From positions 1-20,301 of IMG/VR virus record IMGVR_UViG_3300044627_001459: a DNA stretch of 20,301 bases; one strand, written 5' to 3'. The notes beneath the pieces are model-generated. The model saw only the letters and a program-made list of their open reading frames with translations, had not been told where the DNA came from and ran no database searches. The position numbers and the translations under genes are program-made. This document shows positions 1,577 through 17,491 of this stretch, piece after piece; the stretch's first letter is position 1; every line of letters begins with the position of its first letter. The stretch is from a virus.

Positions 1577-3906
1577 ACATCGTCTCCGTCCAGGTACCGA
1601 ACCTCATCCAAGGGGTCTCTCAGCAACCCCCGCAGATGAGGCTCCCGTCGCAGCTCGAGGAACAGGTCAACGCTTACCCCTCGCTGTCCGATGGGCTCAC
1701 GAAGCGCCCTCCGACAAATCATGTGAAGCGCCTGACCACGGACGCTCCTGACCAGTTCATTCACTTCATCAACCGTGATTCATCTGAGAGGTATGTGGTC
1801 CGAATCACCGCAAGTGGCCTGAAGGTGTTCACGCTTGCAGGCGTTGAGAAGACGGTCTATGACGCCCTGACCAACACCAACCCGTTTACGTTCCCTACCT
1901 ACCTGAACACCCCAGGGAACATTCGGGCAATTACCATTGCCGATTACACCTTCTTGCTCAATCGCGGGCAGACGGTGGCGATGGGTACCACTACGAGTGC
2001 TGCGGCCGTTCGAGAGGGCTTGGTCACGATCATCCAGGCTTCCTACAGCACCGACTACAGCGTGACAATCAAGGTCGGGTCAAATCAGTACACCTACACC
2101 AATACGACTACCAGTAGCTCGGCGAGCACTACTGGGATCGTCACGGCCCTTGTCAGTTCGATCAACGCAGCGACGGGTACGACCGGACTGACGGCAACAA
2201 GTTACGGATCTACCTTTCTTGTCAGCCATGGGACTCTAGACTTCTCTCTGAAGGTCTCCGACTCAGGAGGCGGGAGCCTCATGTCCTGCGCCAAGGGCAA
2301 GGTCAGCAGACTTGCAGACCTCCCGTTGCAGGCAAAGCACGGGTTCAAGGTTGCCGTCGGGGCGGCGGTTGATGAGCCTGAAGCGAGTGACTACTACGTT
2401 GAGTTCGTTGCCAACGACGGCGCGAGTGGTACTGGATTCTGGCAGGAGTCCGTCGGGTTCTTGGTCAAGACAGGCTTCGACGCCACAAGCCTCCCATTTG
2501 TCCTGGTCCGGAGGAGTGACGGTCATTTTGCCTGCTTCCGTCCGTCGTGGACCACCCGGACCGCCGGCGATTCCTCGTCGTCACCGGACCCGAGCATCGT
2601 GGGCAGGAAGATCAAGGACATCTTTCTCTTTAGGAACCGACTCGGGTTCGTCGCCGATGACAAGGTGGTCCTGAGCGAGAGTGGCTTCTACTTCAACTTC
2701 TTCCGCACGACGACCACTCAGATCCTCCCGACTGATCCCATCGACGTCTCGGTAGGGCACAGCAAGATTGCATCGCTAGAGGCCGCCGTCCCCTGGGACG
2801 AGAGGCTCATTCTCTTTTCCCCCCTCACGCAGTTCAGCCTTGGTTCGGGCGGGGACACCGTACTGAGCCCAGAGACGGTCGAGATCGTCCAGACCACGGA
2901 GTTTGAGAATGCTTCGGATCTTTGCCGCCCTGAGGCAACCGGGCGGTCCCTCCTGTTCCCGCAGCGTCGCGGTTCCTATGTCGGAATGCGTGAATACATC
3001 CGCATCTCCACGGACGAGAAGTACGACGGGATGGACATCACCGCGAATGTCCCCTCGTACATCTCTGGCTCCCCGACGCAGATCGCCGTAAGTACGCACG
3101 ACTCCACGGGATTTGTCAGGACATCCGACGGGGTCTGGAACTACAAGTGGTTCGTGAACGGCACCGAGAAGATCCAGTCTGCATGGAGCAGGTGGGACTT
3201 CGGGTTTGATGCCGTGATCCGCGGCATGGAGTGGTTTGACCACAGCCTGTATCTCGTCTTGACCCGAGGAGGTCAGACGGTACTTGAGCGGGTTGACTTT
3301 GGCGGGCGATTCCTTGACGCCCCCCTTGATTGGGGTGTCCACCTGGACCGCCGCCTGAAGGTCTCCTGCACAACGACTGGAGCTCCGGCTGGCTCGAGCA
3401 TCATCGACGTTTCCGGCCTTGACATCAACTTCACGGGCTTGGGTGTTCAGGTGATCGTGAACGGACTTCAGGCGAATGTTGAGTCCGTGTCTGGATCACA
3501 GATCGTCATTACGGGGCGATACAACTCATCTGAGGTGTGGATCGGTGTTCCCTATGAGATGACCTGGACGTTCTCCCAGCCGTTTGTCAGGAACGGGAGC
3601 GCGGCCATTGTCGATGCCAAACTCCAGCTCAACTACCTGACCTTGTCCTTCGAGGACACCGGGTACTTCACTACGACGGTGCAGCCGAAGTACCGGGACC
3701 CGTACTCCTATCTGTACTCCGCAGGGCATGTCGGATCCAACCTGACGGCCGGTGCGGCGTTCCTCGGTACCTCGTCATTCCGCTTCCCGATTCATTGCAA
3801 GTCTGACGAAGCAAAGATCACCGTGAGCAGCTCGTCGTTTCTCCCGTGTCGAATCCAGAGCGCGGCCTTTGAGGGTCGCTACACCACCCGTAACCAGCCC
3901 GTATGA
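1573..3906 (+). CDS. 12: Tail tubular protein B (tail nozzle), T7 gp12-like
   Basis: This 777-residue nozzle protein is close in length to T7 gp12 (794). Residues 10-47 contain the family motif with GVSQQPPQMRLP, QVNAYPSLSDGL and KRPP (T7: GISQQP, QVNGW, GLQKRPP). The middle (about 354-474) has the conserved run RNRLGFVADDKVVLSESG, FNFF, DPIDVSV, AVPWDERLILFS and GMREY, typical of the family's beta-propeller-like body. A Ser/Thr-rich segment lies near residues 175-200. The protein forms the distal hexameric tail tube that carries the fibres and opens for DNA ejection. No Shine-Dalgarno site precedes the ATG, so translation probably depends on the ATGA overlap with gp11. A similar overlap links it to the next gene. 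Confidence 0.94.
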   Translation: MNIVSVQVPNLIQGVSQQPPQMRLPSQLEEQVNAYPSLSDGLTKRPPTNHVKRLTTDAPDQFIHFINRDSSERYVVRITASGLKVFTLAGVEKTVYDALTNTNPFTFPTYLNTPGNIRAITIADYTFLLNRGQTVAMGTTTSAAAVREGLVTIIQASYSTDYSVTIKVGSNQYTYTNTTTSSSASTTGIVTALVSSINAATGTTGLTATSYGSTFLVSHGTLDFSLKVSDSGGGSLMSCAKGKVSRLADLPLQAKHGFKVAVGAAVDEPEASDYYVEFVANDGASGTGFWQESVGFLVKTGFDATSLPFVLVRRSDGHFACFRPSWTTRTAGDSSSSPDPSIVGRKIKDIFLFRNRLGFVADDKVVLSESGFYFNFFRTTTTQILPTDPIDVSVGHSKIASLEAAVPWDERLILFSPLTQFSLGSGGDTVLSPETVEIVQTTEFENASDLCRPEATGRSLLFPQRRGSYVGMREYIRISTDEKYDGMDITANVPSYISGSPTQIAVSTHDSTGFVRTSDGVWNYKWFVNGTEKIQSAWSRWDFGFDAVIRGMEWFDHSLYLVLTRGGQTVLERVDFGGRFLDAPLDWGVHLDRRLKVSCTTTGAPAGSSIIDVSGLDINFTGLGVQVIVNGLQANVESVSGSQIVITGRYNSSEVWIGVPYEMTWTFSQPFVRNGSAAIVDAKLQLNYLTLSFEDTGYFTTTVQPKYRDPYSYLYSAGHVGSNLTAGAAFLGTSSFRFPIHCKSDEAKITVSSSSFLPCRIQSAAFEGRYTTRNQPV

Positions 3907-4367
3907 CCCCCCATGTGCGCCCCTCGCTCGAGTCCGACTGCGGATTCATCGCCTCCCATCTCCGGGAAGCCGACAAGCGGGAATGCGACCTGTGGGGGGT
4001 TGATCCGCTGCATTCGCTGCGGCAAGGTCTCGCGTACTCGCTGCAACCGCTCACCGTCGTCGGCCCCTCGGGATCACCGACCGCCATGTTTGGGGCCACC
4101 TTCGGAAACTCATCGGACGCCACCGTCTGGCTCCTCGGGACTGACGAAATCGTGACGTTCCCCATGACGTTTCTGAGGCAGTCCAGTATGTGGGTAGATC
4201 ACTTGTGTCGGCCCCTGCGGTGCTCGGACAAGATCACCGGGATAGGGAACTGGGTGGATCGTCGAAATGATCGACATGTCTCATGGCTCCTTTGGATGGG
4301 CTTTGAGATGACATCGCCATCCATGAAGGATGAAGTCGAAATCGGATACTTCCGAAAGGCATTCTGA
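3903..4367 (+). CDS. gp13-like protein with GNAT-type fold (internal virion protein A family)
   Basis: This 154-residue protein occupies the T7 gene 13 position between gp12 and gp14. It opens with RPSLESDCGFIASHLREADK, a typical GNAT-like first strand and helix. It continues with AMFGATFG, VWLLGTDEI, WVDRRNDRHVSWLLWMGFEM and a short C-terminus. This order (small-molecule-fold strand, then an N-W-V-D-x-R-N and W-L-x-W-x-G-F ending) is that of acetyltransferase-like proteins found in this slot in many T7-like phages (DUF2833 type). Acetyl-CoA binding residues are not obvious, so catalysis is uncertain. Relatives are annotated as internal virion protein A, although T7 gp13 itself is reported absent from mature particles. 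The start shares ATGA with the gp12 stop and lacks a Shine-Dalgarno site. Confidence 0.75.
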   Translation: MTPHVRPSLESDCGFIASHLREADKRECDLWGVDPLHSLRQGLAYSLQPLTVVGPSGSPTAMFGATFGNSSDATVWLLGTDEIVTFPMTFLRQSSMWVDHLCRPLRCSDKITGIGNWVDRRNDRHVSWLLWMGFEMTSPSMKDEVEIGYFRKAF

Positions 4368-4373
4368 ACAACC

Positions 4374-5078
4374 ATGTGTCTCCCAATCCTTGCCCCCATC
4401 GGGGCGGCCCTTGGTGCCTCTGCGGCACAGGCGGCGGCAGTCGGGACCATGGCGACCCTCGGGCTTGCAACGTCGGCCGCCGGGGCCGCTATGTCCTTCG
4501 TCGGGCAGTCACAGGCTGCTTCGGCGCAGCGGTACCAGTACAGCGAGGCACAGCGCCTTGCGAACGAGAACCTTCAGCTCCAGTACCGGCAGATGGCCGT
4601 GCGGCAGCGGGAAGAGCAGATTTCCAAGGCGCAGCAGGTCCAGCAGATCCGCATGGAAGCCGAGCAGGCGTTCGGGTCTATCCGCGCAGAGAGCGGAGAA
4701 AGCGGTGTGTACGGAAACACCGTGGACATTCTGATGCGGGAGTTTGAGCGTCAGCAGAACGAGTCACTCTCAAACCTCGACCTGAACTACGACTTCAGGA
4801 ACAGGCAGCTCCAGATTGAGCAGCTCGGTATGCGGGGGCGAGCCGAGAGCGCCATGATCCAGGCGTACCCAAACCAGACCGCCCCGAGCATCATCACGCC
4901 GCTCCTTCAGGTTGGTGGCTCGGCGCTGAACACGGTGAACATGTACGGGAACTTCTCAAGGATGCCGGCGTTCGGCGGCAACCCGGCCCCCCAGGTCTCA
5001 AGCCTTGCCCGACGCGAGGCATTCGTGGCCGGGCTTCCTGCCTTCTACCGCACCCCCGGAATGAACCGCTGGTACTGA
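4374..5078 (+). CDS. 14: Internal virion protein B, T7 gp14-like
   Basis: This 234-residue protein resembles T7 gp14 (196 residues), one of three core proteins ejected at infection; gp14 forms the pore in the outer membrane. The N-terminus starts MC, as in T7, followed by an Ala/Gly-rich hydrophobic stretch (about residues 5-45) suited to membrane insertion. Residues 50-100 are a Gln/Glu/Arg-rich helix, probably coiled coil. The signature AFGSIRAESGESGVYGNT (about 99-116) aligns with AIGSIRAAIGESMLEGSS of T7 gp14, followed by a second amphipathic helix. The C-terminal 80 residues are Pro/Gly/Asn-rich. The start lies 6 bases after the gp13 stop with no convincing Shine-Dalgarno site. The gene sits directly before gp15 and gp16, its functional partners. 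Confidence 0.9.
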   Translation: MCLPILAPIGAALGASAAQAAAVGTMATLGLATSAAGAAMSFVGQSQAASAQRYQYSEAQRLANENLQLQYRQMAVRQREEQISKAQQVQQIRMEAEQAFGSIRAESGESGVYGNTVDILMREFERQQNESLSNLDLNYDFRNRQLQIEQLGMRGRAESAMIQAYPNQTAPSIITPLLQVGGSALNTVNMYGNFSRMPAFGGNPAPQVSSLARREAFVAGLPAFYRTPGMNRWY

Positions 5079-5082
5079 ACCG

Positions 5083-7491
5083 ATGGCAAAGTCCCTCACC
5101 CCAAACGACCTTACTCAGGTTGCCATTCAGCCTTCGGCTTCCCCCGTCTCCCTAAACATCCTCCCGGCCCCCGGGCAGCGATTCAGCGGAAACACCCTTC
5201 AGCAGATTGGTGAGTCTCTGGCAGCCTTCAGCCCATCCTTGCAGGGGATGCTTGCTCAGAGAGTGGAGGAGGACAAGCGGGCGCTGGCTGCCCAAGGGGC
5301 GGCGGTTGACTTCTCCCGTGCCTTTGACGTCGATCCGAATGCCGCCCCAGAAGATCGACAGCGGGCGCTCAATGAAGCGTTCAAGGAGTCGATTTCGAGG
5401 CAGGGTGGCCCGGACTCAGCCAACCCATTCTTTCTAATCGCTGCACGGCAGAACTTCGGGCGAACGGTCGGCCTGCGCTATCGGAACGCCCTCGCATCGC
5501 TCCGTGAGAAGGCTACGGATCCAGACAACCCGGTGGCGTTCGGGGAGATCGCCCGCCAGGCGGCAGAGATGGCAGGCTCAGACGCGGTCACGGACGATGT
5601 CTATGGAGCAGCCGGGTTCGCCTCGGTAGCGCAAGAAGTAAACGCCGAGATGAGCGGGCGGTTCCAAGAGGAACTACGCAAGCGGCAGGACTTCCTCGCG
5701 GTGGAGCGCACACAGCAGGGGATCGCGGATGGTCTTCTCACGGCTGCGGCAAGCGGCTCTGACTTCACTCCCGAATCGCTTGTCGGGCAGACCATTCAGC
5801 GGTCTATCGACGCCATTCAAACCACCTCGTCCGACCCTGAGACCGCACGAAGGACGGTCATTGGTGCGGCCCAGATTGCCCTGGGACAGATCAAGGACGA
5901 ACAGGATGCCGAAGAAGCCGTCGCAGCCTTGAGCGAGATGCGGTTCGGGAAGGCATCAATCAGAGAGAACCCGGCATTGTTCGTCCAGCTCCTTCGGATC
6001 AAGGATCAGCGGCTCGACGAGATTGCCGCTGAGGGTGCCCGAGGAGAACGAATCCTGAAGCAGCAGGTTCAGAGAGGGATCCGGGAAATGTATGCCCTCG
6101 GGCTCAACGAGAAGGTGACCCGGGCAATCATGGACGGCAACCAAGAAGGCGCACAGCAGGCGGTTGAGTCCGTGTTCGATCAATACATCACGAACAACCC
6201 GGATACCTCCCCGACGATCCGAGACGCCCTCCGCAGGGAACTCCAGCTTGAGTTGGACCCGCTCTACGGAGCGGTCAGCCGGCAGCGCAACGCATCAAAC
6301 GACGCAGCCTTTGAGAGCGGGTTCGGGCTCATTGACGATGGCACCATCATTGATTCAGGCGTCCTCAGAATGTGGGCGCAGGACAACCAGTTGACCATTG
6401 AGCAGCAGATGCAGCTCAACCGATACTTCTCGGAGAACGTCGGCGTGGTCCGATCCTCTGCCACCTACTACGCGCAGAACAAGGGCAAGGAGATCATCAA
6501 TAGGGTTCTTCAGGGAATGGCCGCAAGCGGGAAGTTGCCCATGGGGATGAACGGGCAGCCAACGGTTACCCCGACTGCACAGGATGAAGCACAGGCGCTT
6601 GAGGTTGAGTGGCGTACTGGTGCCTATGAGCAAGTCCAGAAGTTCGTCCGAGGGGACGTCCGAGACCCCGCATCGGGTTCTTCCTACCAGGACATCAAGC
6701 AGCAGAGCGGTGTTGAGACTGCTAACCGAGCGATTAGCGGTGTACTTGATGCGTGGTACGACAAGCAGATTGAGGCGTACAACCGAAAGAGCACGGCTAC
6801 CAAGGCAGCAGTCGATGCCGGCCTACAGGTCTCCGCGCAGTCTCCTGCCGCGACCTTTGCCGAGGAATCCGCATCGTCTCAGAAGATGGTCTACGACACC
6901 ATCGCCAAGCGCCTCGAGTCGGAGACGATGAACGAGCAGCAGCAGAAGACTGCCGTACTTGAGGCCATTGAGACCGAAATCGCTGATATCAATCGAATTG
7001 GCTACGAAGTCGGATTCGGGTATGGGGGGGCCTTTGAACCCGTCCAACTTGCTGATCGCCTCGGGTCCATGTGGCGGGTGGCTTCTGAGAAGGGGACTGT
7101 AGGGGTCAAGCAGCTCGGATGGGTGTGGGATTCAAGCGTCGCCTTTACCCCGGACGTCATCCTCCACCACTACGGCAAGGTCAAGCGGAGCATTGCCAAT
7201 GGGCTGGACGCTTATGAAGTGATCCGGAACGAGACCAGAGACGGTCTCCCCGTGTTTGGTGTGGTGCTTCCGCACCGCCGAGATGCTGTCGGGTACGCAT
7301 TCTCGGTGCCCCTGTTCTCTTCTTTCGCACAACTCGGAGAAGCCGATACGGTCAACGAGGTCATGGACGCCATGTCCATCCCAACGGATCTTCGACAGCA
7401 ATTTGTGGCCCGTCAAGCAACCCTCGTCCGAATGCGGGCGGCGGTGTCTGCCGAAGCGGAATCACCTAACAAGGTCAGCCCAATCGACTGA
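5083..7491 (+). CDS. 15: Internal virion protein C, T7 gp15-like
   Basis: This 802-residue protein (T7 gp15: 747) lies between gp14 and gp16 and is called chiefly from position, size and composition. It is a long, mostly helical protein rich in Gln, Glu, Ala and Arg. It has a short Pro/Ser-rich N-terminus (residues 1-40) and repeated amphipathic helices through about residue 620. The C-terminal part (about 640-800) is less helical, with aromatic segments such as GWVWDSSVAF and VVLPHRRDAVGYAF. No signal peptide, membrane segment or catalytic motif is visible, and there is no lytic transglycosylase motif. In T7 gp15 builds the periplasmic tube with gp16 during DNA ejection, and the same role is inferred here. 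The start is 4 bases after the gp14 stop with no Shine-Dalgarno site. Confidence 0.85.
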   Translation: MAKSLTPNDLTQVAIQPSASPVSLNILPAPGQRFSGNTLQQIGESLAAFSPSLQGMLAQRVEEDKRALAAQGAAVDFSRAFDVDPNAAPEDRQRALNEAFKESISRQGGPDSANPFFLIAARQNFGRTVGLRYRNALASLREKATDPDNPVAFGEIARQAAEMAGSDAVTDDVYGAAGFASVAQEVNAEMSGRFQEELRKRQDFLAVERTQQGIADGLLTAAASGSDFTPESLVGQTIQRSIDAIQTTSSDPETARRTVIGAAQIALGQIKDEQDAEEAVAALSEMRFGKASIRENPALFVQLLRIKDQRLDEIAAEGARGERILKQQVQRGIREMYALGLNEKVTRAIMDGNQEGAQQAVESVFDQYITNNPDTSPTIRDALRRELQLELDPLYGAVSRQRNASNDAAFESGFGLIDDGTIIDSGVLRMWAQDNQLTIEQQMQLNRYFSENVGVVRSSATYYAQNKGKEIINRVLQGMAASGKLPMGMNGQPTVTPTAQDEAQALEVEWRTGAYEQVQKFVRGDVRDPASGSSYQDIKQQSGVETANRAISGVLDAWYDKQIEAYNRKSTATKAAVDAGLQVSAQSPAATFAEESASSQKMVYDTIAKRLESETMNEQQQKTAVLEAIETEIADINRIGYEVGFGYGGAFEPVQLADRLGSMWRVASEKGTVGVKQLGWVWDSSVAFTPDVILHHYGKVKRSIANGLDAYEVIRNETRDGLPVFGVVLPHRRDAVGYAFSVPLFSSFAQLGEADTVNEVMDAMSIPTDLRQQFVARQATLVRMRAAVSAEAESPNKVSPID

Positions 7492-7493
7492 AC

Positions 7494-10400
7494 ATGCAGG
7501 ACAACCAGAACTCCGGGCGGTACTTCTCGCAGGAAGAACTCGACGCCATCGTCTCCGGGGCTGTCGTGCCAAAGATGCCGACTGACCTCGGGGCTCCCCA
7601 GGAAGCAACCGGATCGTCTCCTGTGTGGGATACCGCGGACACCCTCATGGCTGTCCCGCGGGGTGCCGTCGGGGCAGCGAAGGGCGTATGGAACTTTGCC
7701 GATTGGGCAACCTTCGACCTTCTCCCGGACTGGCATACCAATCCCCTCGGTTCGTCCAAGTCGATAGTGGGTGGTTTCGTAGAGGGAATTGCTCAGGTCG
7801 GAACCGGAATGCTTGTCGGGGGCGGGGTCCTTGGGGCTGTCTCCAAGATTCCGGGGGCCGTGGGTACGGCTGCTTCGTGGCTTGGCGGGGCTGGGGGCGG
7901 CGCGGCAGGCGTCGTCCGTTCCGGTCTCTCGAAGGGAGCCATTGCTGACTTCGTCGCGTTTGAGGCCCACGACGCCCGACTCTCAGACCTCCTTGTTCAG
8001 GCGGACAACCCCCTCCTAAACAACGTCGTCACGCAATACCTGGCGTCCGACATGGAGGATGGAGAACTCGAGGGGAGGCTCAAGAACGCCCTAGAGGGCG
8101 GCGTGACTGGCGTGGCCCTGGATGGCGTCGTCTCCTTGCTCAAGGGGTCCGTAAAGGCGTCCAAGAACTACCGGGCAGCAAAGGCGGCCGGTCGCTCTGA
8201 AGAAGAAGCAGTCAAGGCTGCCATGGACGCGGGTGCGTCCGACATCCGGCGGGGAGAGAGTGTCTTGTCCAAAGAGCAGGACAACCTCCTTACCAAGGCT
8301 GAGTTTGAGCAGACCGGCGGCGCGGGGGCTGAACTGAAGGAAGCGGAGGAACTGCTAGCCCGTGCCGACGATGAAGCGTCTCTTGAGGTGATGTCTGCTG
8401 GTCGGGCTGGTACCCAGTCCATTGAGGACATCCTCCAGGCGTTCAATGATGGCGATGTCGTTGATGTCAAGCGACCGTCTACGAGCGATGCCGGATATCC
8501 CGTGAAGCGCGGAGCTGACGCCATGATAAACCGGATCAACCGGGAGGTCGGGCAGGCCGCCGGGATCACCGCAGAGGAAGGGCGGTTCATGGCTCAACTC
8601 ATTGAGCGCATGGGGGTGTCCAACTTTGAGGACATCGGCATCCGGTTCAGGAAGCTCCGCCCTGGAGCGAACGGATCGTTCGATTTCATCAGGAACGTCA
8701 TCAACATCTCTCGGAAGGCCGAGGCGACCGGGGAGACGAAGCGCACGTTCGTCCATGAGGTGTGGCACTCGCTCACCGAGTACCTGGACGATTCGATGCT
8801 CTCCGCGATGAAGCGGGACTACGAGAAAGCCCACGTCGCATTCTTCGACAAGTACGGGGTTAGCCCACGGGATGCGGTGAGCGGGAACAAGCAGGTCGCC
8901 AAGAGCCTTGCCAAGGTCATCAGAGACAACAGCATCGACATTAGTGAGTGGTATCGGCTCATCAACTTGGATGAGTGGGTTGCCGAGACCCTGACGGACG
9001 CTTCGTTCCGTCAGCTCAATCTTGAGGCGGACACCAAGACCGTCCTCGGGTTCATGCGGTATTTCCTGAAGAACACGCTGACCGAAATCAAGTCCGTCTT
9101 CGGAGGTGCCAAGTACGACAAGCTCTCGAAGGACTGGCTGAACGGTCGCTACCAGTACGCGGCTGTTGACAAGATCACCAAGAGGCCGCACTCATTCCGC
9201 CAGACGGCTCGAGGAAAGCAAATCCTGCCAGGCAGGGGGGCGTTGGGCGGTCAGCGCATGGCTGAGTACCGGGCTTACGGTGAGTATGTGACGCCGGACA
9301 TGAGCGGGATCGCGTTCTCAGCCAGTCAGGTCGGTGGCCCCAACTACAAGGTCGATGAGGTTCGGGCAACCGCAGTCGATCCCAATGTCGCCAAAGAGAT
9401 GAGGGACATTTTGGCTGGTGGAGGGGACCGAGCTGCCATCCGAGACGCGGTCAAGCGATACGACGACGCTGGGCTCATCAACTTCAACCGCATCCTTCGC
9501 GGGCAGGGGACGGACGAGGAGCTCTACGAGGAACTTGTCGGAGTCCTCCGGCAATTTGAAGCAAATCCTCGGTCGTTTTCTAAGGCACCGAAGGGAAGCA
9601 ACAAGGCCACGTCCGATGCGGCCAAGGCTGCCCTCCTCGCCATGCAAGAAACCGGCGGAGTCAACATTGCGGCCATGCGGGCCATGGTGGAGAAGGGGAC
9701 CATCACGGCCAAGGAAGTGTTTGATCTTGCCCCCGTGCTCGAGGGAGTTGAGATGCACCTTCGCAGCAAGATGCTTGAAGCCCTCCGGAACCCGTCTTCC
9801 GCCGATCCCGTGCTGATGGCAAAGGCGTGGACATCCATTGCCGGAAGCGTTGAGAAGTTCTTCTCATACGCGGGCAAGACGCTTCAAGTCCGTCAGGCAT
9901 TCGATACCTCTAAGCGGTTCATGGACGAACTCTCAAGGCTCTCGCCAGAGCAGCGGAAGATCATGGCTGAGAGCATGGCGGACACCCTTCAGTACCTCGT
10001 CCTTGACCCCACGACTGGCAAGGAGATGGCGAAAGTCCTGACCGAGAGTTCAATGATGAAGGGGGTCCGAATCATCACGGAACTCCACCGGAACTCCATC
10101 CTCAGCGGCCCCAAGACTGCCGCCGTCAACTTCTGGAACGGGGTTCAGATGCTTCTCCAGCCCGTCGAGCGCGCCGTCGGGAGACTTGGTTCCGGGCAAA
10201 CAGACATTGCGGCCCGGGAACTCTCGACGATTACTCGCTACATGGGGGAGAGCCGGGAGGCTGCCCGAGCCGCAGCGGCATCGTTCATCGCAGAAGGCGA
10301 CTCAATCGCACTTGGACGAGGCAACACCCAGTTTGGTGAGTTCAGCCCACAGCGGGCCGTCTCAAGCCGTAACGCCAGATTCCTGAACACGGTTGATCCG

Positions 10401-12335
10401 GCTACCGGAGGGGTGAACAGGACCGTTGCCGGAACCGCTGTCGATTTTGTCGGACAAGTCGTGGGCACCCCGACTCGCCTGATGGGTACCTCAGATGAGT
10501 TCTTCACGACCCTCTCAGCACGGTCGGAAGCCGATGTCGTACTCCGACGGATTGTCGCCAAGAACATGAAGCGTGGGCTCACCGACTCTGCGGTCAGCGC
10601 AGAGGTGCATCGTCTCAAGCAAATCATGTTTGTTGACGGTCAGCTCTACACCCGAAAGACCGTACTTGAGCGGGGGATGCGAATGGCGCGGGAGAAGTAT
10701 CTGCCGAAGGCTCTCCTCAAGACGCTTTCCGATTCCATCGCGGCAAAGACCGGGGCGTCCGCAACGGACCCCTCGGTGGTCTCTGAGGCGAACCGGATGT
10801 TCAGCCAAATGATCGACCCTTCCACGGGCAAGGTCAAGTCCATGGCGGAAATCCGAAAGATGCCCGATGCTGACGTCTTGATCCCGAGCCTGGATGCCGC
10901 AGGTGGGAGAGCCGTCGCGGAGCCGCTGTTCCTCTCGGAGGTCCAGCGATTCGTTGACCAGAACTGGGACCAGTACGTCGATTCGGACATGATGCCAATC
11001 GGTGGGCGTTTCCAGGATCAGGTCGGTCAGGACTTCAGGATTCTCCAGCAGGCATCTCGGGAGATTGAGCGCCGCGTCCGGGAGACCACCTGGAAGCGCG
11101 ACTACGAGGACATGGCGGAATCATCGGTGTGGGGTACCCGTCTCGTCGGAAACATCGGCCGCGCTGTGTCTGGAGCCGTCAATCAAGTCCCGGCACTTCA
11201 GCTAGTCGTTCCGTTCATTAGGACTCCGACCAATCTGCTCGCGTATGTCACGGACCGGAACCCCGTCGGCCGCAGTCTTGCGTGGGTGCAGGCGGCGCGG
11301 GCCGGGGACAAGGAAGCCATGGCCGAGGCCATCGGCAGATTCTCGACCGGCACGGTCTTCTACACCACGGCAGTCGCCTTGGCCGCCAATGGGATGATTA
11401 CGGGCAAGGGTCCGAAGGACACCGAACTACGCAAGCAGCTCCTTGCCGCGGGGTGGCAGCCGTACTCGTTCCGAATCGGAGATACGTTCCTGTCCTACGG
11501 CCGAAACGACCCGGTGGCGACCTTCTTCGGGCTTGTGGCGGACACCTTTGAAGTCGCTAACGCCACCTACGACCCGACCCCAGACGAGCTTGGTGCTATG
11601 GAGACGCTGTCCAAGGCGGTCCTCACCTCGGTCGCCAACAACGTCACGACCAAGAGCTACCTGCGCGGTATCTCGACGGTCATTGAGGCACTCGGGGGTA
11701 ATGAGGCAGCCATTGGTCAGCTCAAGCGGCAGTACGCGGGTGCCGTGGTCCCGAACTTCCTTGCCCAAGGCGAGAACTACGTCCTCGATTCAGACATCCG
11801 TGAAACCAGGACGATGCTTGATGCCATTCGCGCACGGACACCGTTCCTGAACGACAACGTGGACAAGGTCAGGAATGCCACCGGCGACCCGATCTCCGGT
11901 GCTGAGGGTCCGTTCAGCATGTGGCTCCCAACGAACGCACGGAGACTCAGCAAGGACCCAGTCAAGCGGGAGCTCGCCTCGAGCCTCATCTCAGTCGGCT
12001 CGCCTCGTCGGGTACTTCCCGGCGGGATTGACTTGAAGAACATCAGGCTCAAGAGCGGACAGTCTGCTTACGACCGTCTTCAGGAGCTTTCCGGTGAAGT
12101 CCGGATTGGGGGGCGAACGCTGAAGCAGCAACTCCAGTCCCTCATCTCGAGCCCCTTCTACCAGGGTCTCCCAGAGATGGGTCAAGACAATTTTGACTCC
12201 CCCCGTGTGTCCCTCGTCCGAGGAAACGTGTCGTCGTTCCGTCGGGCAGCAATGCAGCAACTAATGAAGGAATCCCCGGATCTCGCCATCGCGGTCGCCA
12301 AGAGCCGCGAAGCCAAGGCGTCCATGTTCCGCTGA
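7494..12335 (+). CDS. 16: Giant internal virion protein D, T7 gp16-like, with predicted zinc metallopeptidase domain
   Basis: This 1613-residue protein (T7 gp16: 1318) is the largest product in the window and would be ejected with gp14/gp15 to span the envelope and draw DNA in. Residues about 90-144 are Gly/Ala-rich and hydrophobic. AHDARLSDLL (158-167) and a helix-forming segment after it resemble the N-terminal module of many podophage gp16 proteins. Residues 421-425 read HEVWH, a zincin HExxH motif, after a strand-like INISRK. DEWVAE (493-498) follows about 70 residues later and could supply the third zinc ligand. No N-terminal transglycosylase like that of T7 gp16 is seen. The C-terminal part has the conserved run VPFIRTP (1239-1245), GMITGKGP (1300-1307) and GWQPYS (1320-1325), found in this family and in large phage polyvalent proteins. 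The start is 2 bases after the gp15 stop, without a Shine-Dalgarno site. Peptidase activity is inference. Confidence 0.86.
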   Translation: MQDNQNSGRYFSQEELDAIVSGAVVPKMPTDLGAPQEATGSSPVWDTADTLMAVPRGAVGAAKGVWNFADWATFDLLPDWHTNPLGSSKSIVGGFVEGIAQVGTGMLVGGGVLGAVSKIPGAVGTAASWLGGAGGGAAGVVRSGLSKGAIADFVAFEAHDARLSDLLVQADNPLLNNVVTQYLASDMEDGELEGRLKNALEGGVTGVALDGVVSLLKGSVKASKNYRAAKAAGRSEEEAVKAAMDAGASDIRRGESVLSKEQDNLLTKAEFEQTGGAGAELKEAEELLARADDEASLEVMSAGRAGTQSIEDILQAFNDGDVVDVKRPSTSDAGYPVKRGADAMINRINREVGQAAGITAEEGRFMAQLIERMGVSNFEDIGIRFRKLRPGANGSFDFIRNVINISRKAEATGETKRTFVHEVWHSLTEYLDDSMLSAMKRDYEKAHVAFFDKYGVSPRDAVSGNKQVAKSLAKVIRDNSIDISEWYRLINLDEWVAETLTDASFRQLNLEADTKTVLGFMRYFLKNTLTEIKSVFGGAKYDKLSKDWLNGRYQYAAVDKITKRPHSFRQTARGKQILPGRGALGGQRMAEYRAYGEYVTPDMSGIAFSASQVGGPNYKVDEVRATAVDPNVAKEMRDILAGGGDRAAIRDAVKRYDDAGLINFNRILRGQGTDEELYEELVGVLRQFEANPRSFSKAPKGSNKATSDAAKAALLAMQETGGVNIAAMRAMVEKGTITAKEVFDLAPVLEGVEMHLRSKMLEALRNPSSADPVLMAKAWTSIAGSVEKFFSYAGKTLQVRQAFDTSKRFMDELSRLSPEQRKIMAESMADTLQYLVLDPTTGKEMAKVLTESSMMKGVRIITELHRNSILSGPKTAAVNFWNGVQMLLQPVERAVGRLGSGQTDIAARELSTITRYMGESREAARAAAASFIAEGDSIALGRGNTQFGEFSPQRAVSSRNARFLNTVDPATGGVNRTVAGTAVDFVGQVVGTPTRLMGTSDEFFTTLSARSEADVVLRRIVAKNMKRGLTDSAVSAEVHRLKQIMFVDGQLYTRKTVLERGMRMAREKYLPKALLKTLSDSIAAKTGASATDPSVVSEANRMFSQMIDPSTGKVKSMAEIRKMPDADVLIPSLDAAGGRAVAEPLFLSEVQRFVDQNWDQYVDSDMMPIGGRFQDQVGQDFRILQQASREIERRVRETTWKRDYEDMAESSVWGTRLVGNIGRAVSGAVNQVPALQLVVPFIRTPTNLLAYVTDRNPVGRSLAWVQAARAGDKEAMAEAIGRFSTGTVFYTTAVALAANGMITGKGPKDTELRKQLLAAGWQPYSFRIGDTFLSYGRNDPVATFFGLVADTFEVANATYDPTPDELGAMETLSKAVLTSVANNVTTKSYLRGISTVIEALGGNEAAIGQLKRQYAGAVVPNFLAQGENYVLDSDIRETRTMLDAIRARTPFLNDNVDKVRNATGDPISGAEGPFSMWLPTNARRLSKDPVKRELASSLISVGSPRRVLPGGIDLKNIRLKSGQSAYDRLQELSGEVRIGGRTLKQQLQSLISSPFYQGLPEMGQDNFDSPRVSLVRGNVSSFRRAAMQQLMKESPDLAIAVAKSREAKASMFR

Positions 12336-12344
12336 GAAACACCC

Positions 12345-15300
12345 ATGCCAGAGTTCTACGAACTTCCGTACAAGGCCCGGACCTTCTACTCAGGTGACGG
12401 GGTCCAGAAGGACTTCCCGATCTCATTTGCCGGCGGCCCCCCGCTTGCAAGAGAGCACGTCCAGGTGTTCCTGAACCAGGTGTCCTACTCCTCCAACTGG
12501 AGCATCGTCACCATTGGTGGGCAGGACTACGTCAGGTTCGTCGATGCCCCTCCGCAGGTCACCGGGGGCGTCCCGAACGTCATGCTCAAGCGCGTGACCC
12601 CGGCAGATGCTTCCAACCGGGTAGTTGACTTCACGGATGGTTCCATCCTGAGCGCCGCTGACTTGGACAAGGCCCAGCTGAACTCTCTGTACGTCAGCCA
12701 GGAATCCGCTGACCTGTTCCTCGATCAGGGCGGGGCGGCAGTCAACGTCAACTTCGACCAGACTATCGGAGGCGAGAAGACCTTCACCGGAGTCGTTGAG
12801 GTGGCCGAGAGTGGGGCCTTTGTCCACAGACCCGGCACTCCGATCTCGAAGGTCTCCGTTGGAAAGCAGTACGTCCTTGCCGCGGCTTCCGTAGATGGTT
12901 CGGTTGAGTGGATGCCGACCACGGTGTCCGCAGAGAACCTACCCACCAATGTCGTCCTCACCGACACGCCCGCAACATCGGCACAGGTCATCACCGGACC
13001 GAAGAAGTTCGAGAACACCGTCGAGGTGTTGAACAACGGGCTGAAGGTCTCCTCAACCGGATCAGCCAACAAGGCCCTGGTATCCACCGACAACGCCGGG
13101 ACCATGGGCCTCCAGCCCATCGTCAACGGGGTTCGCCTCGGATCTGCAAACGCAGCCGTCTCTACTGGAACTGTCACGATCTCCCCCGAGACCATTGGGG
13201 CATTGTCGGCGAACACGCAGGGCGGGGCCACTCAAACGGTTTCCGTCCCGGTCAACTTCACGGCATCCATTGGGCTTGGCGATGATGCTTCAGCCGACAC
13301 CCTGACCATCAACAGCAGTCTCGTCATCCCGCCGAACGCCGCGGCCGGGAAGATCCTGACCTGCCTGAGCAATACTGGTAACGCCACTTGGGCCAACGCC
13401 CCTCAGACTGGTATTACCTCAATCAACGGCGATACCGGAGTTGGTGGTTCGGTCACGCTTGACGCCGCGGACGTAGGCGCGGTCGCGGTGAATGGACCTG
13501 CCCAAAACGTAAACGCCGAAACGACGTTCACAAACAAGGTCACGCTCGGTGACTCTGAACTTGATACGGTGACGGTCAACGGCCGTATCAAGTACCCCAT
13601 TACCGGGTACGGGGCAGGCAAGATCCTCTTCTGCCAGAACGATGGCGAGGCTGTGTGGAACAATCTCCCAAGCTTCGTCACGTCGGTCAACGGAAAGACT
13701 GGCGCAGGGAACAGCGGTGCAGTCACGCTCTCCGCAGCCGACGTCTCGGCTGTTGGCGTCAGCGGAAACCAGAACATTGCCGACACCAAGACCTTCACGG
13801 GGACGGTGTCGGCGAACAACGCAACCGTCACGAACTCCCTGAGTTACCCGGTCGGCACCAACTTGGCCGGCAAGGTCCTGACCTCTGACGCCTCAGGAAA
13901 CGCCTCTTGGGCAAGCCCGCCGTCCACGGGAGTAACCTCGGTCAACAACCAGACGGGACCGTCGGTGACCCTCACGGCATCGGATGTTGGCGCGGTGAGT
14001 GTGGCGACCACTCAGGAAATCACGGGGGCAAAGACGTTCTCAAACAACGTCAATCTCGGTGTAGACCAGTTTGACATCATCACGGTCAACGGTGAGTTCC
14101 GGGTCCCAGGCGGAACCGCTGGACAGGTCCTCACCCAGACCGCCGCTGGCAAGGCCATCTGGCAGACGCCGGAGCCTGCTGGCGTGACGAGCGTGAACGG
14201 TGGGGCAGGGACCGTGACCATCACGGCCGCAGACCTCGGTGCGTATACGGCACAGACGATCCCGACCGCAACGACCGGGCAGAAGGGACTGATGCAGGTC
14301 GGGAGCGGACTCTCCGTCAGCAATGGCGTGGTCAGCGTCGATCAGAACGCAACCCTCCCTGTCGCCTCGGCTACCGTTCTCGGTGGTATCAAGATCGGCA
14401 GCAACCTGTCGATCAACCAGGATGGAGTTCTTTCGGCCGCTATTAGCCAAAATACCGGGGTTACTAAGTTCAACAACCGAGCCGGAGATGTCGTCCCCAC
14501 AAATGGTGATTACACGGCAGCTCAGGTCACTAATGCCGTTACGACGAACTCCGCGCAGGATGTCTCTGGGTCCAAGAAGTTCACGGCCAACCAGACCGTC
14601 TCTACCGCTACCCCAGCCGTCGGAGTGAACGGGTCGTCCGGTGTTCTCCTCAACACCTCTGGCCTGATTCAAGCGCAGCGAACCTCCGCCAATGACCGTG
14701 TCTTCCAGGGACATGCCCCGGCTGGAGGGGTGACCTCGTACATTGAGTCCGACGGCGATGCGACGTTCAATGGCGTCGTGACCGCCAATGGTGGGTTTGT
14801 TACGACGGCAGGGATGACCGTCGGCGACAATACCACCGACGGGATCAACATCACCGGAACCCTGAAGATTTCTGGTAACGGAACGCCAGCAGCAGGGAAG
14901 GTGCTGACATGCACCAACACTACCGGCAACGTCGAGTGGCAGATGCCGGCGAACGCCCCGGTCACGACCGTAAACGGCCTCAACGGGAACGTAAGCATCA
15001 GCCTTGACGGCGAGGCCAGCCCCACCGGAAACTTGGGCGGCGTCACCAAGGGAACTACCCAGAGCATCAGCGGAGCCAAGACGTTCACCGCTGCGACCAG
15101 CTTCACCAACAACGTCACCCTCGGAGACGGGGCCGCTGACATCATCAAGGTTGATGGGACGCTCCGTATCCCATCCGGGGCCGTCGCCGGCCGCTATCTT
15201 CAGTCGAACGCCAACGGTGATGCGTCGTGGGCCACGATCCCAACTGCGCCCGTGTCATCCGTCAACGGGGCAACTGGGGCCGTAACGATTATTGCGGACG

Positions 15301-16895
15301 GAACCGAGACCTCGACCACCAAGAGTCTTGGGGCCGTTGACAAGACCAGCAATCAGACGATTGGCGGTAACAAGACCTTTAGCGGTACGGTCACGTTCAA
15401 CAGCAACGTCACCGTCGGCGCAACCACGGCGTCAACCCTGACGGTCAATGCTTCTCCGACGTTCCCCTCCGGAGCGGCGGTTGGCCGCGTCCTGACCTGC
15501 GTTGACGCCAACGGAAACACCCAATGGTCGGACCCGACCGCCCCTCCGGTCACGTCTGTCAACGGGCAAACCGGGGCAGTCGTCGTCACGGCAGACGAAT
15601 CAGGAACCGGGATAGGCGCCGTGACCAAGACCACGGCCCAAGACATCACCGGAATCAAGACGTTCACCGTCGCACAGAACTTCCACGGAGACGTCAAGCT
15701 TGGCGATGCCGTCACCGATACGGTCACGCTCAATGCGAAGATGGTTGTTCCTGCGGACAAGGGCATCAATAAGGTCCTCACCTGCGTTGACGGCACCACA
15801 GGCCAGGTTGGGTGGGCTGCCCCTCGAGTCAACTCGGTCAGAGGGTCTACTGTTCTAATAGCAAACGCCCAGACCGGAGATGTCTCTATCTCGGCGGCGG
15901 ACGTTGGGGCACCCACGGTGGCGCAACTCAACACGGTTTCAGCCGCAGCAACGGCAGCACAGACCACGGCGAACACCGCCTCGACCAACGCATCAAACGC
16001 CCTGACGGTCGCAAACGCGAAGCTGTCCTCCGTCACCACGACGACTACCCCTGATCGGCCCGGAGCCGGAGCGACGAACCTCACTTGCCTGAGTGGTGAC
16101 GGTACGGCTGGAAATCCCCTCCGAGTTGAGGGAGCCATTCCATTTGGACCGGCCGCGGGAGACCTTACTGGTACTTACCCAAACCCAACCATCGGCTCAA
16201 ACAAAGTCACGTTTGACAAGATGCGCTTGGTCCCCCCAGCGAAGCTCTTGGGAGGACCGACCACCGGGACGAACGATGGCCAGATCCAGGCAATCGGGCT
16301 CGGGAGCGGGCTTGCCTTTGACGCGAACGGCAACCTCTCCAATAGCGCCATCCCGACCGTTTCCGCGAGTGGAGCCAACACGTTCACGGGGGCCAACACT
16401 TTCTCCGGCAACGTCACGGCTACCGGGAACGTGACTCTTGGTGATGCAACCGCCGACGTTGTTCAGGTCTCGGGAACCATGCGGTACCTGCCGGCTGGGA
16501 GTACTGCCCCCACGGTTGGTCACGTCCTGACCTGCAACAACGTGAACGGAACCGTTGCTTGGGCGGCAGCCCCCGGCGGATCTACGTTCACGCCGTCAAA
16601 CACAGACATTGGCTCAACGGCGATCTTGTTCACCAACGGAACCACACTAACGAACATAACGAACTCTGGAGCATTTTCGATGGCAACCTCCGGGACCTCG
16701 ATCACTCGTCTTCGGGCCCCATCTGGACAAACGTGGCGCGGAACAGTCGTTGCATACACCGACGGGGGCGTCTCCCTGAGCTTTCCAACCCCATATTCGG
16801 CCGTGGTGACTTCATCGGCGGCGCCGACAACGACAAACCTTTCTGGAGGCGTTACCGTCAACAACTGCGTATGGACGCTTGTGAGGACCGCCTGA
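12345..16895 (+). CDS. 17: Long tail fibre protein with T7 gp17 N-terminal anchor and repeat shaft
   Basis: This is a 1516-residue receptor-binding fibre, about three times T7 gp17 (roughly 550). Residues 1-125 are the T7-type tail-attachment domain: YSGDGVQKDFPISF, LKRVTPADASNRVVDFTDGS and ILSAADLDKAQLNSLYVSQE match T7 LRRVTSTTDRLVDFTDGSIL and its continuation. Residues about 139-1405 are a shaft of degenerate repeats (see the repeat entry). An Ala/Thr/Asn-rich helix at about 1190-1230 looks like a trimeric coiled coil. AGDLTGTYPNPTI follows, a motif common in phage fibres. The last 110 residues (about 1405-1516) are beta-rich, non-repetitive and the likely receptor-binding tip. No autoproteolytic chaperone is apparent. 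The ATG lies 9 bases after the gp16 stop without a Shine-Dalgarno site. The stop shares one base with the next start (TGATG). Confidence 0.93.
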   Translation: MPEFYELPYKARTFYSGDGVQKDFPISFAGGPPLAREHVQVFLNQVSYSSNWSIVTIGGQDYVRFVDAPPQVTGGVPNVMLKRVTPADASNRVVDFTDGSILSAADLDKAQLNSLYVSQESADLFLDQGGAAVNVNFDQTIGGEKTFTGVVEVAESGAFVHRPGTPISKVSVGKQYVLAAASVDGSVEWMPTTVSAENLPTNVVLTDTPATSAQVITGPKKFENTVEVLNNGLKVSSTGSANKALVSTDNAGTMGLQPIVNGVRLGSANAAVSTGTVTISPETIGALSANTQGGATQTVSVPVNFTASIGLGDDASADTLTINSSLVIPPNAAAGKILTCLSNTGNATWANAPQTGITSINGDTGVGGSVTLDAADVGAVAVNGPAQNVNAETTFTNKVTLGDSELDTVTVNGRIKYPITGYGAGKILFCQNDGEAVWNNLPSFVTSVNGKTGAGNSGAVTLSAADVSAVGVSGNQNIADTKTFTGTVSANNATVTNSLSYPVGTNLAGKVLTSDASGNASWASPPSTGVTSVNNQTGPSVTLTASDVGAVSVATTQEITGAKTFSNNVNLGVDQFDIITVNGEFRVPGGTAGQVLTQTAAGKAIWQTPEPAGVTSVNGGAGTVTITAADLGAYTAQTIPTATTGQKGLMQVGSGLSVSNGVVSVDQNATLPVASATVLGGIKIGSNLSINQDGVLSAAISQNTGVTKFNNRAGDVVPTNGDYTAAQVTNAVTTNSAQDVSGSKKFTANQTVSTATPAVGVNGSSGVLLNTSGLIQAQRTSANDRVFQGHAPAGGVTSYIESDGDATFNGVVTANGGFVTTAGMTVGDNTTDGINITGTLKISGNGTPAAGKVLTCTNTTGNVEWQMPANAPVTTVNGLNGNVSISLDGEASPTGNLGGVTKGTTQSISGAKTFTAATSFTNNVTLGDGAADIIKVDGTLRIPSGAVAGRYLQSNANGDASWATIPTAPVSSVNGATGAVTIIADGTETSTTKSLGAVDKTSNQTIGGNKTFSGTVTFNSNVTVGATTASTLTVNASPTFPSGAAVGRVLTCVDANGNTQWSDPTAPPVTSVNGQTGAVVVTADESGTGIGAVTKTTAQDITGIKTFTVAQNFHGDVKLGDAVTDTVTLNAKMVVPADKGINKVLTCVDGTTGQVGWAAPRVNSVRGSTVLIANAQTGDVSISAADVGAPTVAQLNTVSAAATAAQTTANTASTNASNALTVANAKLSSVTTTTTPDRPGAGATNLTCLSGDGTAGNPLRVEGAIPFGPAAGDLTGTYPNPTIGSNKVTFDKMRLVPPAKLLGGPTTGTNDGQIQAIGLGSGLAFDANGNLSNSAIPTVSASGANTFTGANTFSGNVTATGNVTLGDATADVVQVSGTMRYLPAGSTAPTVGHVLTCNNVNGTVAWAAAPGGSTFTPSNTDIGSTAILFTNGTTLTNITNSGAFSMATSGTSITRLRAPSGQTWRGTVVAYTDGGVSLSFPTPYSAVVTSSAAPTTTNLSGGVTVNNCVWTLVRTA
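12759..16562 (+). repeat. Degenerate in-frame repeats encoding the fibre shaft
   Basis: Each unit encodes, in order, a V-T-S-V-N-G-x-T-G motif, an A-A-D-V-G-A-V segment, Q-x-I-x-G-x-K-T-F-T, L-G-D-x-x-x-D-x-x-T-V-N, and G-K-V-L-T-C-x-x-x-x-G-N-x-x-W. The VTSVNG-type motif starts at 13413, 13677, 13932, 14184, 14460, 14961, 15252, 15549 and 15828. Spacings are therefore 252-297 bases, apart from one 501-base step between 14460 and 14961. About eleven QxIxGxKTF-like and ten GKVLTC...W-like copies are present. The units are similar in protein but clearly diverged in DNA, so the duplications are old or under diversifying change. Confidence 0.88.
16884..16887 (+). promoter_or_regulatory. Ribosome-binding site deciding the holin-like start
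   Basis: AGGA within GTGAGGACC lies 7 bases before the ATG at 16895. It sits inside the last codons of the fibre gene and supports initiation at 16895 rather than at ATG codons further upstream in the same open frame, which would overlap the fibre gene by more than 300 bases. Confidence 0.6.
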
Positions 16896-17104
16896 TGCCC
16901 GCAGAACACGACGTCATGCTTGCCATCGGACGCCTCGAGGGAAAGCTCGACTCGCTCCTCCAGATGCGTCAGCAACAGCAGCAGGAGATCAAGGAACTTG
17001 ACGGTCGGGTCCGTCACCTTGAACACACCAAGGCAATCATCATCGGAGGAGCTGGGGCCGTGTCGGCCGCCGTCTCCCTTCTTCTCAACCTCTTCCACAA
17101 GTAA
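16895..17104 (+). CDS. Small holin-like membrane protein (T7 gp17.5 position)
   Basis: This 69-residue protein has a charged N-terminal half and one hydrophobic segment. Residues 9-44 form a likely amphipathic coiled coil (IGRLEGKLDSLL, then five Gln in a row, then EIKELDGRVRHLE). Residues about 47-66 (AIIIGGAGAVSAAVSLLLNL) form a single membrane helix, followed by FHK. A coiled coil followed by one C-terminal helix is the layout of XhlA-like and some small phage holins. The slot right after the tail fibre and before the small terminase is that of T7 gene 17.5 (67-residue holin). The reading frame is open further upstream, but ATG 16895 has an AGGA site and a TGATG overlap with the fibre stop. 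An antiholin or other small membrane protein is possible. No endolysin or spanin gene is in the window. Confidence 0.72.
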   Translation: MPAEHDVMLAIGRLEGKLDSLLQMRQQQQQEIKELDGRVRHLEHTKAIIIGGAGAVSAAVSLLLNLFHK

Positions 17105-17107
17105 ACC

Positions 17108-17491
17108 ATGCAGACCTTTACCCTCCTCGCGCCGACCGCCATGAGTTCCGCCCTCACCGGCAGCTCAACGCAATACCGACCGATCATGGACTCCGTTGGT
17201 GTTGCCGTGATTGAGATGAAGCAGTCCTCAACCATCAACCCGCCCACGGGATCGTGCACCATCGAAATCCAGGGATCGCTTGACGGTTCTGACTGGGTTG
17301 TCCTCTTCAGCACCTCGAGTGCTGCCCTGACCAAGCCGCTTGGGGTCACGCCTGACTTTGGCTCGGGTATCGGCGGTTACCGCACGTTGGCTCAGGTCGT
17401 CCAGACGATGCCGGTCATGCGCGTGTGCACTTCGGCCGCCCTCACCAACGGCGCAAACGCGCTGGTCTCGGTCATCCTCGCCAATGGCTGA
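17108..17491 (+). CDS. Unrecognised beta-rich protein between holin and terminase
   Basis: This 127-residue protein is one I cannot assign to a family with confidence. It has no signal peptide or membrane helix. Residues 50-68 (starting SCTIEIQGSLDGSDWVVLF) and the end (ALTNGANALVSVILANG) give an alternating beta pattern with Gly/Asn turns. The pattern recalls small phage structural or decoration-type proteins whose sequences read LEGSLDGTNW and end with V-R-x-x-x-x-x-x-x-N-G. A minor virion or fibre-associated protein is the best guess. The ATG lies 3 bases after the holin-like stop with no Shine-Dalgarno site. Its 3' end overlaps the small terminase gene by 8 bases, so it belongs to the same transcript. 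Composition is like the neighbours, which argues that it is a resident gene. Confidence 0.7.
   Translation: MQTFTLLAPTAMSSALTGSSTQYRPIMDSVGVAVIEMKQSSTINPPTGSCTIEIQGSLDGSDWVVLFSTSSAALTKPLGVTPDFGSGIGGYRTLAQVVQTMPVMRVCTSAALTNGANALVSVILANG

Follow-up and report, generated by a model that had tools for sequence, protein, structure and literature searches.

We analyzed a 20.3-kb virus record (IMG/VR record IMGVR_UViG_3300044627_001459, 20,301 nucleotides; hereafter the window), and all conclusions presented here were computed from sequence. The window encodes a gp16-type internal virion (ejection) protein of 1613 residues (nucleotides 7494 to 12335; all features named below are on the plus strand). 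Between two conserved modules of this protein lies a hypervariable slot, whose contents have been gained, lost, and exchanged among contigs. In the window, the slot holds a predicted zincin-like metallopeptidase. We moderately favor the reading that this is a swappable zincin in a fixed gp16 slot, which would be ejected with the DNA to cut a host protein early in infection and would be accessory and exchanged by recombination.

The 1613-residue protein was assigned to the gp16 type because of its match to phrog_6651 (internal virion protein; E = 1.8e-44, best stretch residues 1225 to 1494) and its gene position. The late genes of the window follow a T7-like order: tail tube (PF17212), nozzle (PF25675), a 154-residue protein, gp14 (PF24072), a protein in the gp15 position, the gp16-type protein, fiber, and a terminase with a T7-type RNase H domain. 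Residues 84 to 228 of the gp16-type protein (7743 to 8177; alignment A5) are part of the conserved N-terminal module, and residues 640 to 1613 (9411 to 12332) form the C-module, which is conserved in relatives with and without the insert. The insert is a cassette of 1008 nucleotides, or 336 codons (residues 274 to 609; 8313 to 9320), delimited by blastn against the related contigs L009 and L008. It contains the metallopeptidase domain as modeled (residues 328 to 567; 8475 to 9194) and extends beyond positions 8574 to 9053, which a first-pass annotation of the window had singled out; it is the whole cassette that is lost or exchanged in relatives. Weak hydrophobic stretches stand on either side of the slot (residues 91 to 123 and 1224 to 1242, by hydropathy), and Pfam recognized no further catalytic or effector domain in the protein.

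The first-pass annotation had read HEVWH at residues 421 to 425 (8754 to 8768) as an HExxH metallopeptidase motif, and that reading held. Composition predicts 0.003 HExxH occurrences in this protein, and the motif is absent from the other 10 window open reading frames (ORFs) tested. We aligned the domain with relatives from several rounds of scanning viral contigs, the most distant of them about 22% identical. The final alignment (A4) has 17 rows, the window included, and some rows are close to one another (window and L003, 96% identical). Positions G394, T418, H421, E422, W424, H425, K445, Y487, E494, L508, F536, and G537 are invariant in all 17. The motif is preceded by NVINISRK, which the annotation had called strand-like, in agreement with a predicted strand at residues 402 to 406. 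It is followed by DEWVAE (residues 493 to 498), which had been proposed as a third-ligand helix. One glutamate of this segment fits the proposal: E494 (8973 to 8975) is invariant along with H421, E422, and H425, and lies near the start of a predicted helix at residues 492 to 515. The other, E498, is replaced in four rows (L005, L038, L049, and L042), so E494 is the likelier third ligand. From the alignment, the zinc ligands are likely H421, H425, and E494, with E422 as the general base.

The domain is under purifying selection, with a ratio of nonsynonymous to synonymous substitution rates (dN/dS, NG86) of 0.16 between the window and L003. Further pairs gave 0.21 (window and L005), 0.35 (L044 and L053), and 0.37 (L053 and L055). 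We disregarded pairs with saturated dS (window and L032, window and L025, L025 and L036) or with no dS (L040 and L041). A chance motif is ruled out by the invariance in 17 rows, the expectation of 0.003, and the confinement of HExxH to the slot in the survey described below. We also rejected an intein. Inteins have a nucleophile at the first position and His-Asn at the end; the cassette starts with TGGAGAE, ends with GIAFS and no terminal HN, and had no intein or homing-nuclease match.

AlphaFold2 on the A4 alignment yielded one good model, with a predicted local distance difference test score (pLDDT) of 82.6 and a predicted template modeling score (pTM) of 0.81; an earlier AlphaFold model from a 3-row alignment had a pLDDT of 38. 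In the good model, a helix (360 to 373) is followed by three strands (382 to 386, 394 to 397, and 402 to 406; nucleotides 8637 to 8711), the helix that carries HEVWH (415 to 430), and the helix with E494 near its start (492 to 515). This order matches the zincin layout given in PMC5512222, and the model thus has the gluzincin core of an N-terminal helix, three strands, and two helices. Fold comparison with VIA ranked lethal factor highest (Z up to 7.8, root mean square deviation 4.2, 145 aligned residues), and also listed PPEP (Z 6.7), IrrE (5.8), ArdC (5.1), the DNA-protein cross-link (DPC) repair protease 6mdx (4.9), selecase (4.7), and the VgrG2b effector domain (4.3). Certhrax (6.6) and edema factor (6.0) were present as well, and we claim no HExxH for either. 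In BFVD, two matches fell under 0.001, both uncharacterized phage proteins (best E = 6.9e-6); the rows below the best included several annotated large polyvalent proteins and Internal protein D of Bordetella phage BB8 (E = 0.01).

Sequence searches placed the domain in no known peptidase family at a useful level in Pfam, PHROGs, or NCBIfam, and none of the matches at such a level was to a peptidoglycan peptidase family. The commonest weak PHROG match was phrog_1233, of unknown function (7 of 12 domain members, best E 0.0033), and single weak Pfam matches among the 12 members were to SprT-like (0.036) and Peptidase_M76 (0.25). A PDB sequence search found no relative of the domain. Among cellular genomes, 65 and 26 pattern matches included no relative, the patterns being short and exact and best suited to close relatives. 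Searches of phage records by tblastn found nothing for the window domain or for the L042, L044, L074, and L115 stretches; the L124 stretch gave three matches to phages of 250 to 485 kb, all outside its HExxH. The conserved HExxH, the later glutamate, and the predicted fold nonetheless bear out the zincin-like metallopeptidase domain that had been proposed for this protein. On the model, the zincin fold class is well supported, and no specific family is.

We next compared the window with contigs that lack the cassette. L009 is the same phage, with 98.5% identity over 6,184 nucleotides upstream and 98.1% over 4,019 nucleotides downstream (blastn), yet it lacks exactly nucleotides 8313 to 9320, and both flank alignments are free of gaps. 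Apart from the missing cassette, its gp16 corresponds to the window protein at 97 to 99% identity. The cassette is also missing from L012, which has about 76% DNA identity to the window over the longest match. L008 shows the reverse pattern: it has 996 nucleotides of the cassette (8321 to 9316) at 96.2% identity, whereas the alignable gp16 flanks reach only 72 to 75% in DNA. At the protein level, the window and L008 are 95.8% identical in the domain and 58 to 70% in the flanks. L008 and L036, by comparison, are 96%, 87%, and 98% identical outside the domain and 50% in the domain core. The absence of the cassette from L009 and these contrasts between domain and flanks indicate that the domain moves as a unit.

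Several contigs carry more than one identifier from different scans (for example, L003/L008/L077, L009/L065, L012/L066, L025/L071, L036/L078, and L064/L007). L064, the near twin of the window (99.4% in protein), stands for the window in the survey, flank-pair, and linker comparisons, and a second cassette blastn, on coding sequences, used L064 instead of the window. Read from L064, the window lineage keeps the linker type of the cassette-less L065 (KEQDNLLTKAEFEQ and KEQDDLLTKAEFEQ). After this linker, it shows ELKEAEELLARADDEASLEVMSAG inside the cassette, which is the L077 linker; the first part of ELKEAEELLARADDEASLEVMSAG, ELKEAEELL, also occurs in L073 and L074, whose genes share the L077 background but differ from it in slot content. 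Thus, based on this handful of sequences, the window lineage probably gained its cassette recently from an L077-like phage.

To see how widely the slot is used, we scanned with the N-module (residues 84 to 228). The scan found 271 relatives, and the best 80 were kept and grouped into 59 clusters, giving 51 representatives with both modules. These include near-identical genes with different slots and so are not 51 independent lineages. Eight clusters without a C-module in the contig were excluded (L098, L099, L101, L105, L108, L119, L132, and L134), three of which have HExxH. The motif occurs in the slot in 33 of the 51 representatives and in the rest of the protein in none, where composition predicts 0.15 in each part. 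Among slots of more than 150 net residues, 33 of 40 carry HExxH, compared with none of the 11 short slots. The slot motifs are HE[VIL]WH (18), HE[MI][LI]H (8), HE[ASG]TH (4), HEY[VI]H (2), and HEVVH (1). A third-ligand-like signature (E[FWY], then a hydrophobic residue, then A, S, T, V, or M) follows 40 to 150 residues downstream in 33 of 33 HExxH slots and in 7.6% of shuffles. ART-PolyVal, a predicted modifying domain (ADP-ribosyltransferase), matched in 3 of the 43 slots scanned. In profile comparisons, the window group scored 100 with HELWH, 99.8 with HEWGH, 97.5 with HE[MI][LI]H, and 85.7 with HEVVH; its scores with HEY[VI]H (18.5) and HE[ASG]TH (0.4) were low, and these two join through HE[MI][LI]H (98.3 and 98.5). 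This chain links all slot groups except one HEISH copy. Zincin-bearing loci compared with the window proteins also share its gene neighborhood, with the nozzle gene upstream in 9 of 9 and a fiber match downstream in 7 of 9.

Slot contents differ even between genes that are otherwise nearly identical. In both slot flanks, DNA identity is 96 to 98% among L073 (no insert), L074 (HEVVH), and L077 (HEVWH), and L078/L079, with a diverged HEVWH domain, represent a fourth state with flanks 94 to 96% identical to those of L077. In protein comparisons, empty slots pair with loaded ones in L067 and L068 (HEVWH; N-part 100% identical, C-part 99%), L083 and L082 (HEVWH; 100% and 87%), and L111 and L118 (HEILH; 94% and 98%). 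One protease type is exchanged for another between L113/L124 (HEMLH) and L114/L115 (HELWH; 99% and 97 to 100%) and between L128 (HESTH) and L131 (HELWH; 93% and 88%). Identities between slots of very different length (global alignment, background about 31 to 35%) were not used as evidence of relatedness.

Several relatives have more complex arrangements. The gp16 proteins of L134 and L135 have two HExxH motifs in one slot (residues 347 and 641), the unlinked HEISH and an HEWGH of the window group. L042 encodes a 2612-residue gp16-type protein (5829 to 13664) with ART-PolyVal at residues 499 to 667 (E = 3e-19) and a zincin at 805; HELAH at 351 is another HExxH in this protein. In L044, the gp15-position protein (3345 to 6260) appears by eye to contain a LysM and a transglycosylase-like stretch, and stands beside a zincin-bearing gp16 (6261 to 11936). 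Transglycosylase and zincin activities may therefore coexist in one virion.

Together, these comparisons suggest a mechanism. A fixed slot between the N-module and C-module of gp16 would here be filled by a gluzincin-type metallopeptidase. By orthology, the domain would travel as part of gp16: stored in the capsid core, it would leave with the DNA and then refold in the envelope or cytoplasm. There, within minutes of the start of infection, the protease would cleave a host protein, most likely a defense or envelope protein. The slot content would be accessory, with phages gaining, losing, and exchanging it by recombination. Since near-identical phages lack the module, neither capsid maturation nor DNA entry as such is likely to depend on it. 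The retention of catalytic residues, the exchange for other proteases, and the occasional predicted ADP-ribosyltransferase are best read as signs of a host-directed effector. On balance, the comparisons suit a host-directed protease that the phage can do without better than they suit virion maturation, and disarming the host is the role we favor. The sequences themselves show the conserved motif, the predicted fold, the layout of the slot, and the presence, absence, and exchange of its content among contigs; that the domain binds zinc, is catalytic, sits in the virion, and has a host target is what we infer. More broadly, and with confidence only a little better than even, we propose that gp16 of T7-type phages contains a hypervariable slot dedicated to effectors, filled mostly by zincins of several subfamilies and reshuffled by recombination on near-identical backgrounds, through which varying host targets would be struck before phage gene expression.

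Maturation of core proteins was one role suggested in the first-pass annotation, and in its wider form the zincin would be a processing protease: acting in the head or once ejected, it would release or activate parts of the machine by cleaving gp16 or further core proteins. Such processing has been proposed for polyvalent proteins on the model of phage P1 DdrB (PMC5512222), and the position of the domain in the middle of gp16, with variable linkers on both sides, would suit it. These linkers show no conserved cleavage site by eye, and the same source describes N4 virion RNA polymerase (vRNAP) as packaged unprocessed. Above all, gp16 genes near-identical in both flanks keep an open frame without the cassette, so the machine does not need the cleavage, which speaks against the maturation role and makes a processing protease unlikely. 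The annotation had also noted that no lytic transglycosylase is visible, and in agreement, neither Pfam nor PHROGs, searched to an E of 1, found one in the proteins at the gp16 and gp15 positions. The zincin could be a periplasmic envelope protease that cuts peptidoglycan peptides or an envelope protein for DNA entry, as substitute for or partner of the T7 gp16 transglycosylase. The VgrG2b effector domain, which appears among the VIA rows, has a periplasmic role. For the T7 ejectosome, PMC8954989 assigns gp16-N to the periplasm and gp16-C to the cytoplasm. The idea of a stand-in for the missing transglycosylase is not supported by L009, whose cassette-less gp16 likewise shows none, and the L044 lineage, with its transglycosylase-like stretch beside a zincin gp16, argues against simple replacement. 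Given also the lack of a useful match to any peptidoglycan peptidase family, we consider an envelope protease quite unlikely.

The zincin fold might also have been retained as a noncatalytic spacer or binding module, which would be consistent with the inactive homologues found in metallopeptidase families (PMC11266112) and with the fact that catalysis here is a prediction. None of the 17 rows differs at E422 or at any of the three candidate ligands, and HExxH with a third-ligand signature recurs in every HExxH-bearing slot across several subfamilies, which makes an inactive filler very improbable. The mixed genes could instead be assembler chimeras of co-occurring phages, as the zincin genes were found in IMG/VR contigs whose names resemble metagenome data sets and the motif is nearly absent from named phages (see below). 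Yet slot states recur across data sets (HEVWH in L068, L069, and L070; empty in L073 and L075), the reading frame is open across the slot, and related zincins occupy the same position in distant relatives. An assembly artifact is hardly credible on these grounds.

Several observations weigh against the swappable, host-directed zincin that we prefer. Four of the five AlphaFold2 models were poor (pLDDT 46 to 53), and the VIA scores are all under a Z of 8, where by the tool's own warning a match can reflect a common arrangement. Foldseek against the PDB gave no match to the model at E ≤ 0.001. Seven of the 40 long slots lack HExxH; six of these, scanned singly, had nothing above the Pfam cut-off, and the seventh, L104, was scanned only within the 43-slot scan. 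The third-ligand pattern found in all 33 slots was devised after the sequences had been inspected. A module that adjusts ejection to particular envelopes would account for exchange and dispensability as well. Against applying our reading widely, the island of HTVC010P-like phages that contains an internal virion protein is reported to vary at the nucleotide rather than the gene-content level (PMC6487183).

Named phages also weigh against the preferred reading, as 18 of 19 gp16-position proteins or fragments from their records are without HExxH, and all loaded slots that we found come from IMG/VR contigs, not isolates. The 19 comprise 17 of 60 listed (of 88 phage records with a gp16 match) and 2 from the L038 search; among them, P-SCSP1d is cut by the stretch, HTVC309P is split in two genes, and ctgrD200 comes from an uncultured phage. 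Loaded slots may thus simply be rare in culture collections. The cultured Prochlorococcus phage P-SCSP1d (L157) has HESFH at residue 790 of a 2149-residue fragment that also carries a gp16 C-terminal match, but we rejected it, as the motif has no profile link to the slot zincins.

The first-pass annotation had regarded a protease carried in the capsid and delivered with DNA as a distinct solution. In general this is not supported, as zincins in injected phage proteins are already known. Zincins are the commonest domain of polyvalent proteins, where autoprocessing and host targeting have been discussed (Iyer et al. 2017, PMC5512222). The metallopeptidases (MPTases) of these proteins resemble the window domain in having an HExxH helix, a three-stranded sheet, and a Glu on a later helix, and in belonging to a large phage protein that probably enters the host together with DNA. 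In relatives L042 and L107, though not recognized in the window protein, ART-PolyVal stands beside the zincin. The window domain differs in its chassis, a T7 gp16-type ejection protein, and in having been gained, lost, and exchanged recently at a single fixed position; the main text of PMC5512222 contains none of the terms "gp16," "internal virion," and "T7-like." One widely distributed phage-type group, among 12 MPTase clades in that paper, is marked by a His at the end of strand 2 and, three positions past HExxH, an Asp. The window sequence there is HEVWH-S-L-T, and its second strand (394 to 401, GSFDFIRN) contains no His, so it lacks these marks.

The C1 domain of N4 vRNAP also carries HExxH in an ejected protein (PMC12633501). 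The N4 record has HELVH at 2228 with NEFMAWGLAN downstream, like the slot zincins. In hhalign comparisons with seven slot groups, N4 C1 scored 84.0 with HE[MI][LI]H, 49.6 with HE[ASG]TH, and less than 9 with the other five, including 4.5% with the window group, which is not significant. Against the pooled slot profile it scored 62.9, and a one-sequence hmmsearch gave 6.5e-5. N4 differs in that its C1 belongs to a polymerase. T7 gp16 (internal virion protein D) shares gene position, C-module, and neighbors with the window protein, but has an N-terminal transglycosylase, called a phage-specific feature in PMC8954989, where the window protein has none that we found and an inserted protease slot instead. 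Lethal-factor-type and PPEP metallopeptidases, which are M34-like, have the best structural resemblance to the model. The likeness is one of predicted fold, with about 10 to 16% identity and no useful sequence match in Pfam, NCBIfam, or the PDB. Domain swapping is also a feature of polymorphic toxins, of which the gp16 slot, as we propose it, would be a phage counterpart.

Ejection proteins are usually described as parts of a DNA delivery machine. If the slot is refilled with proteases on a gene that is about 97% identical, the same machine would also deliver a changing set of enzymes. Under-recruiting, hypervariable islands of marine phages include internal virion protein genes, for a reason called obscure (Mizuno et al. 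2014, PMC3909814), and HTVC010P-like phages have an island containing an internal virion protein (PMC6487183 and PMC10504331). We liken these metaviromic islands to the slot by description only; the parts of these papers available give no domain-level explanation. If our reading is correct, the gp16 effector slot could be the reason that hypervariable islands of aquatic phages include internal virion proteins, and for some of the under-recruiting genes of this kind reported by Mizuno et al. it supplies a cause that can be tested. The slot states on one gene background also amount to a natural knockout series for the effect of an early protease on hosts and their defenses. We found no description of a swappable protease slot in T7-type gp16 in the open-license literature.

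The neighboring genes complete the T7-like late region. The gp14-type internal virion protein (4374 to 5078) matched PF24072 (E = 2e-25) and phrog_805. The 802-residue protein that follows (5083 to 7491) is placed in the gp15 position by synteny only; it had no informative family match in Pfam or PHROGs, and its counterpart at the same place in L025 is 52.7% identical. Between the nozzle and gp14 genes lies the 154-residue protein (3903 to 4367), matched there in 6 of 9 loci compared, which may be acetyltransferase-like; it had no Pfam match. Directly before the terminase, a 74-codon frame (17487 to 17708) is 88% identical to one at the same place in L025 and is likely the small terminase subunit. 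Just behind the fiber end, a small ORF (about 16895 to 17104, start uncertain) encodes a coiled coil and then one hydrophobic helix, and by eye looks like a lysis protein (holin or spanin). The fiber gene itself (12345 to 16895) consists, by eye, of many similar repeats of the type SVNG..TG..V... The fiber has 1516 residues in the window and 1882 in L009 (9209 to 14857), and the aligned DNA is 97 to 98% identical, indicating that repeat number varies between near-identical phages.

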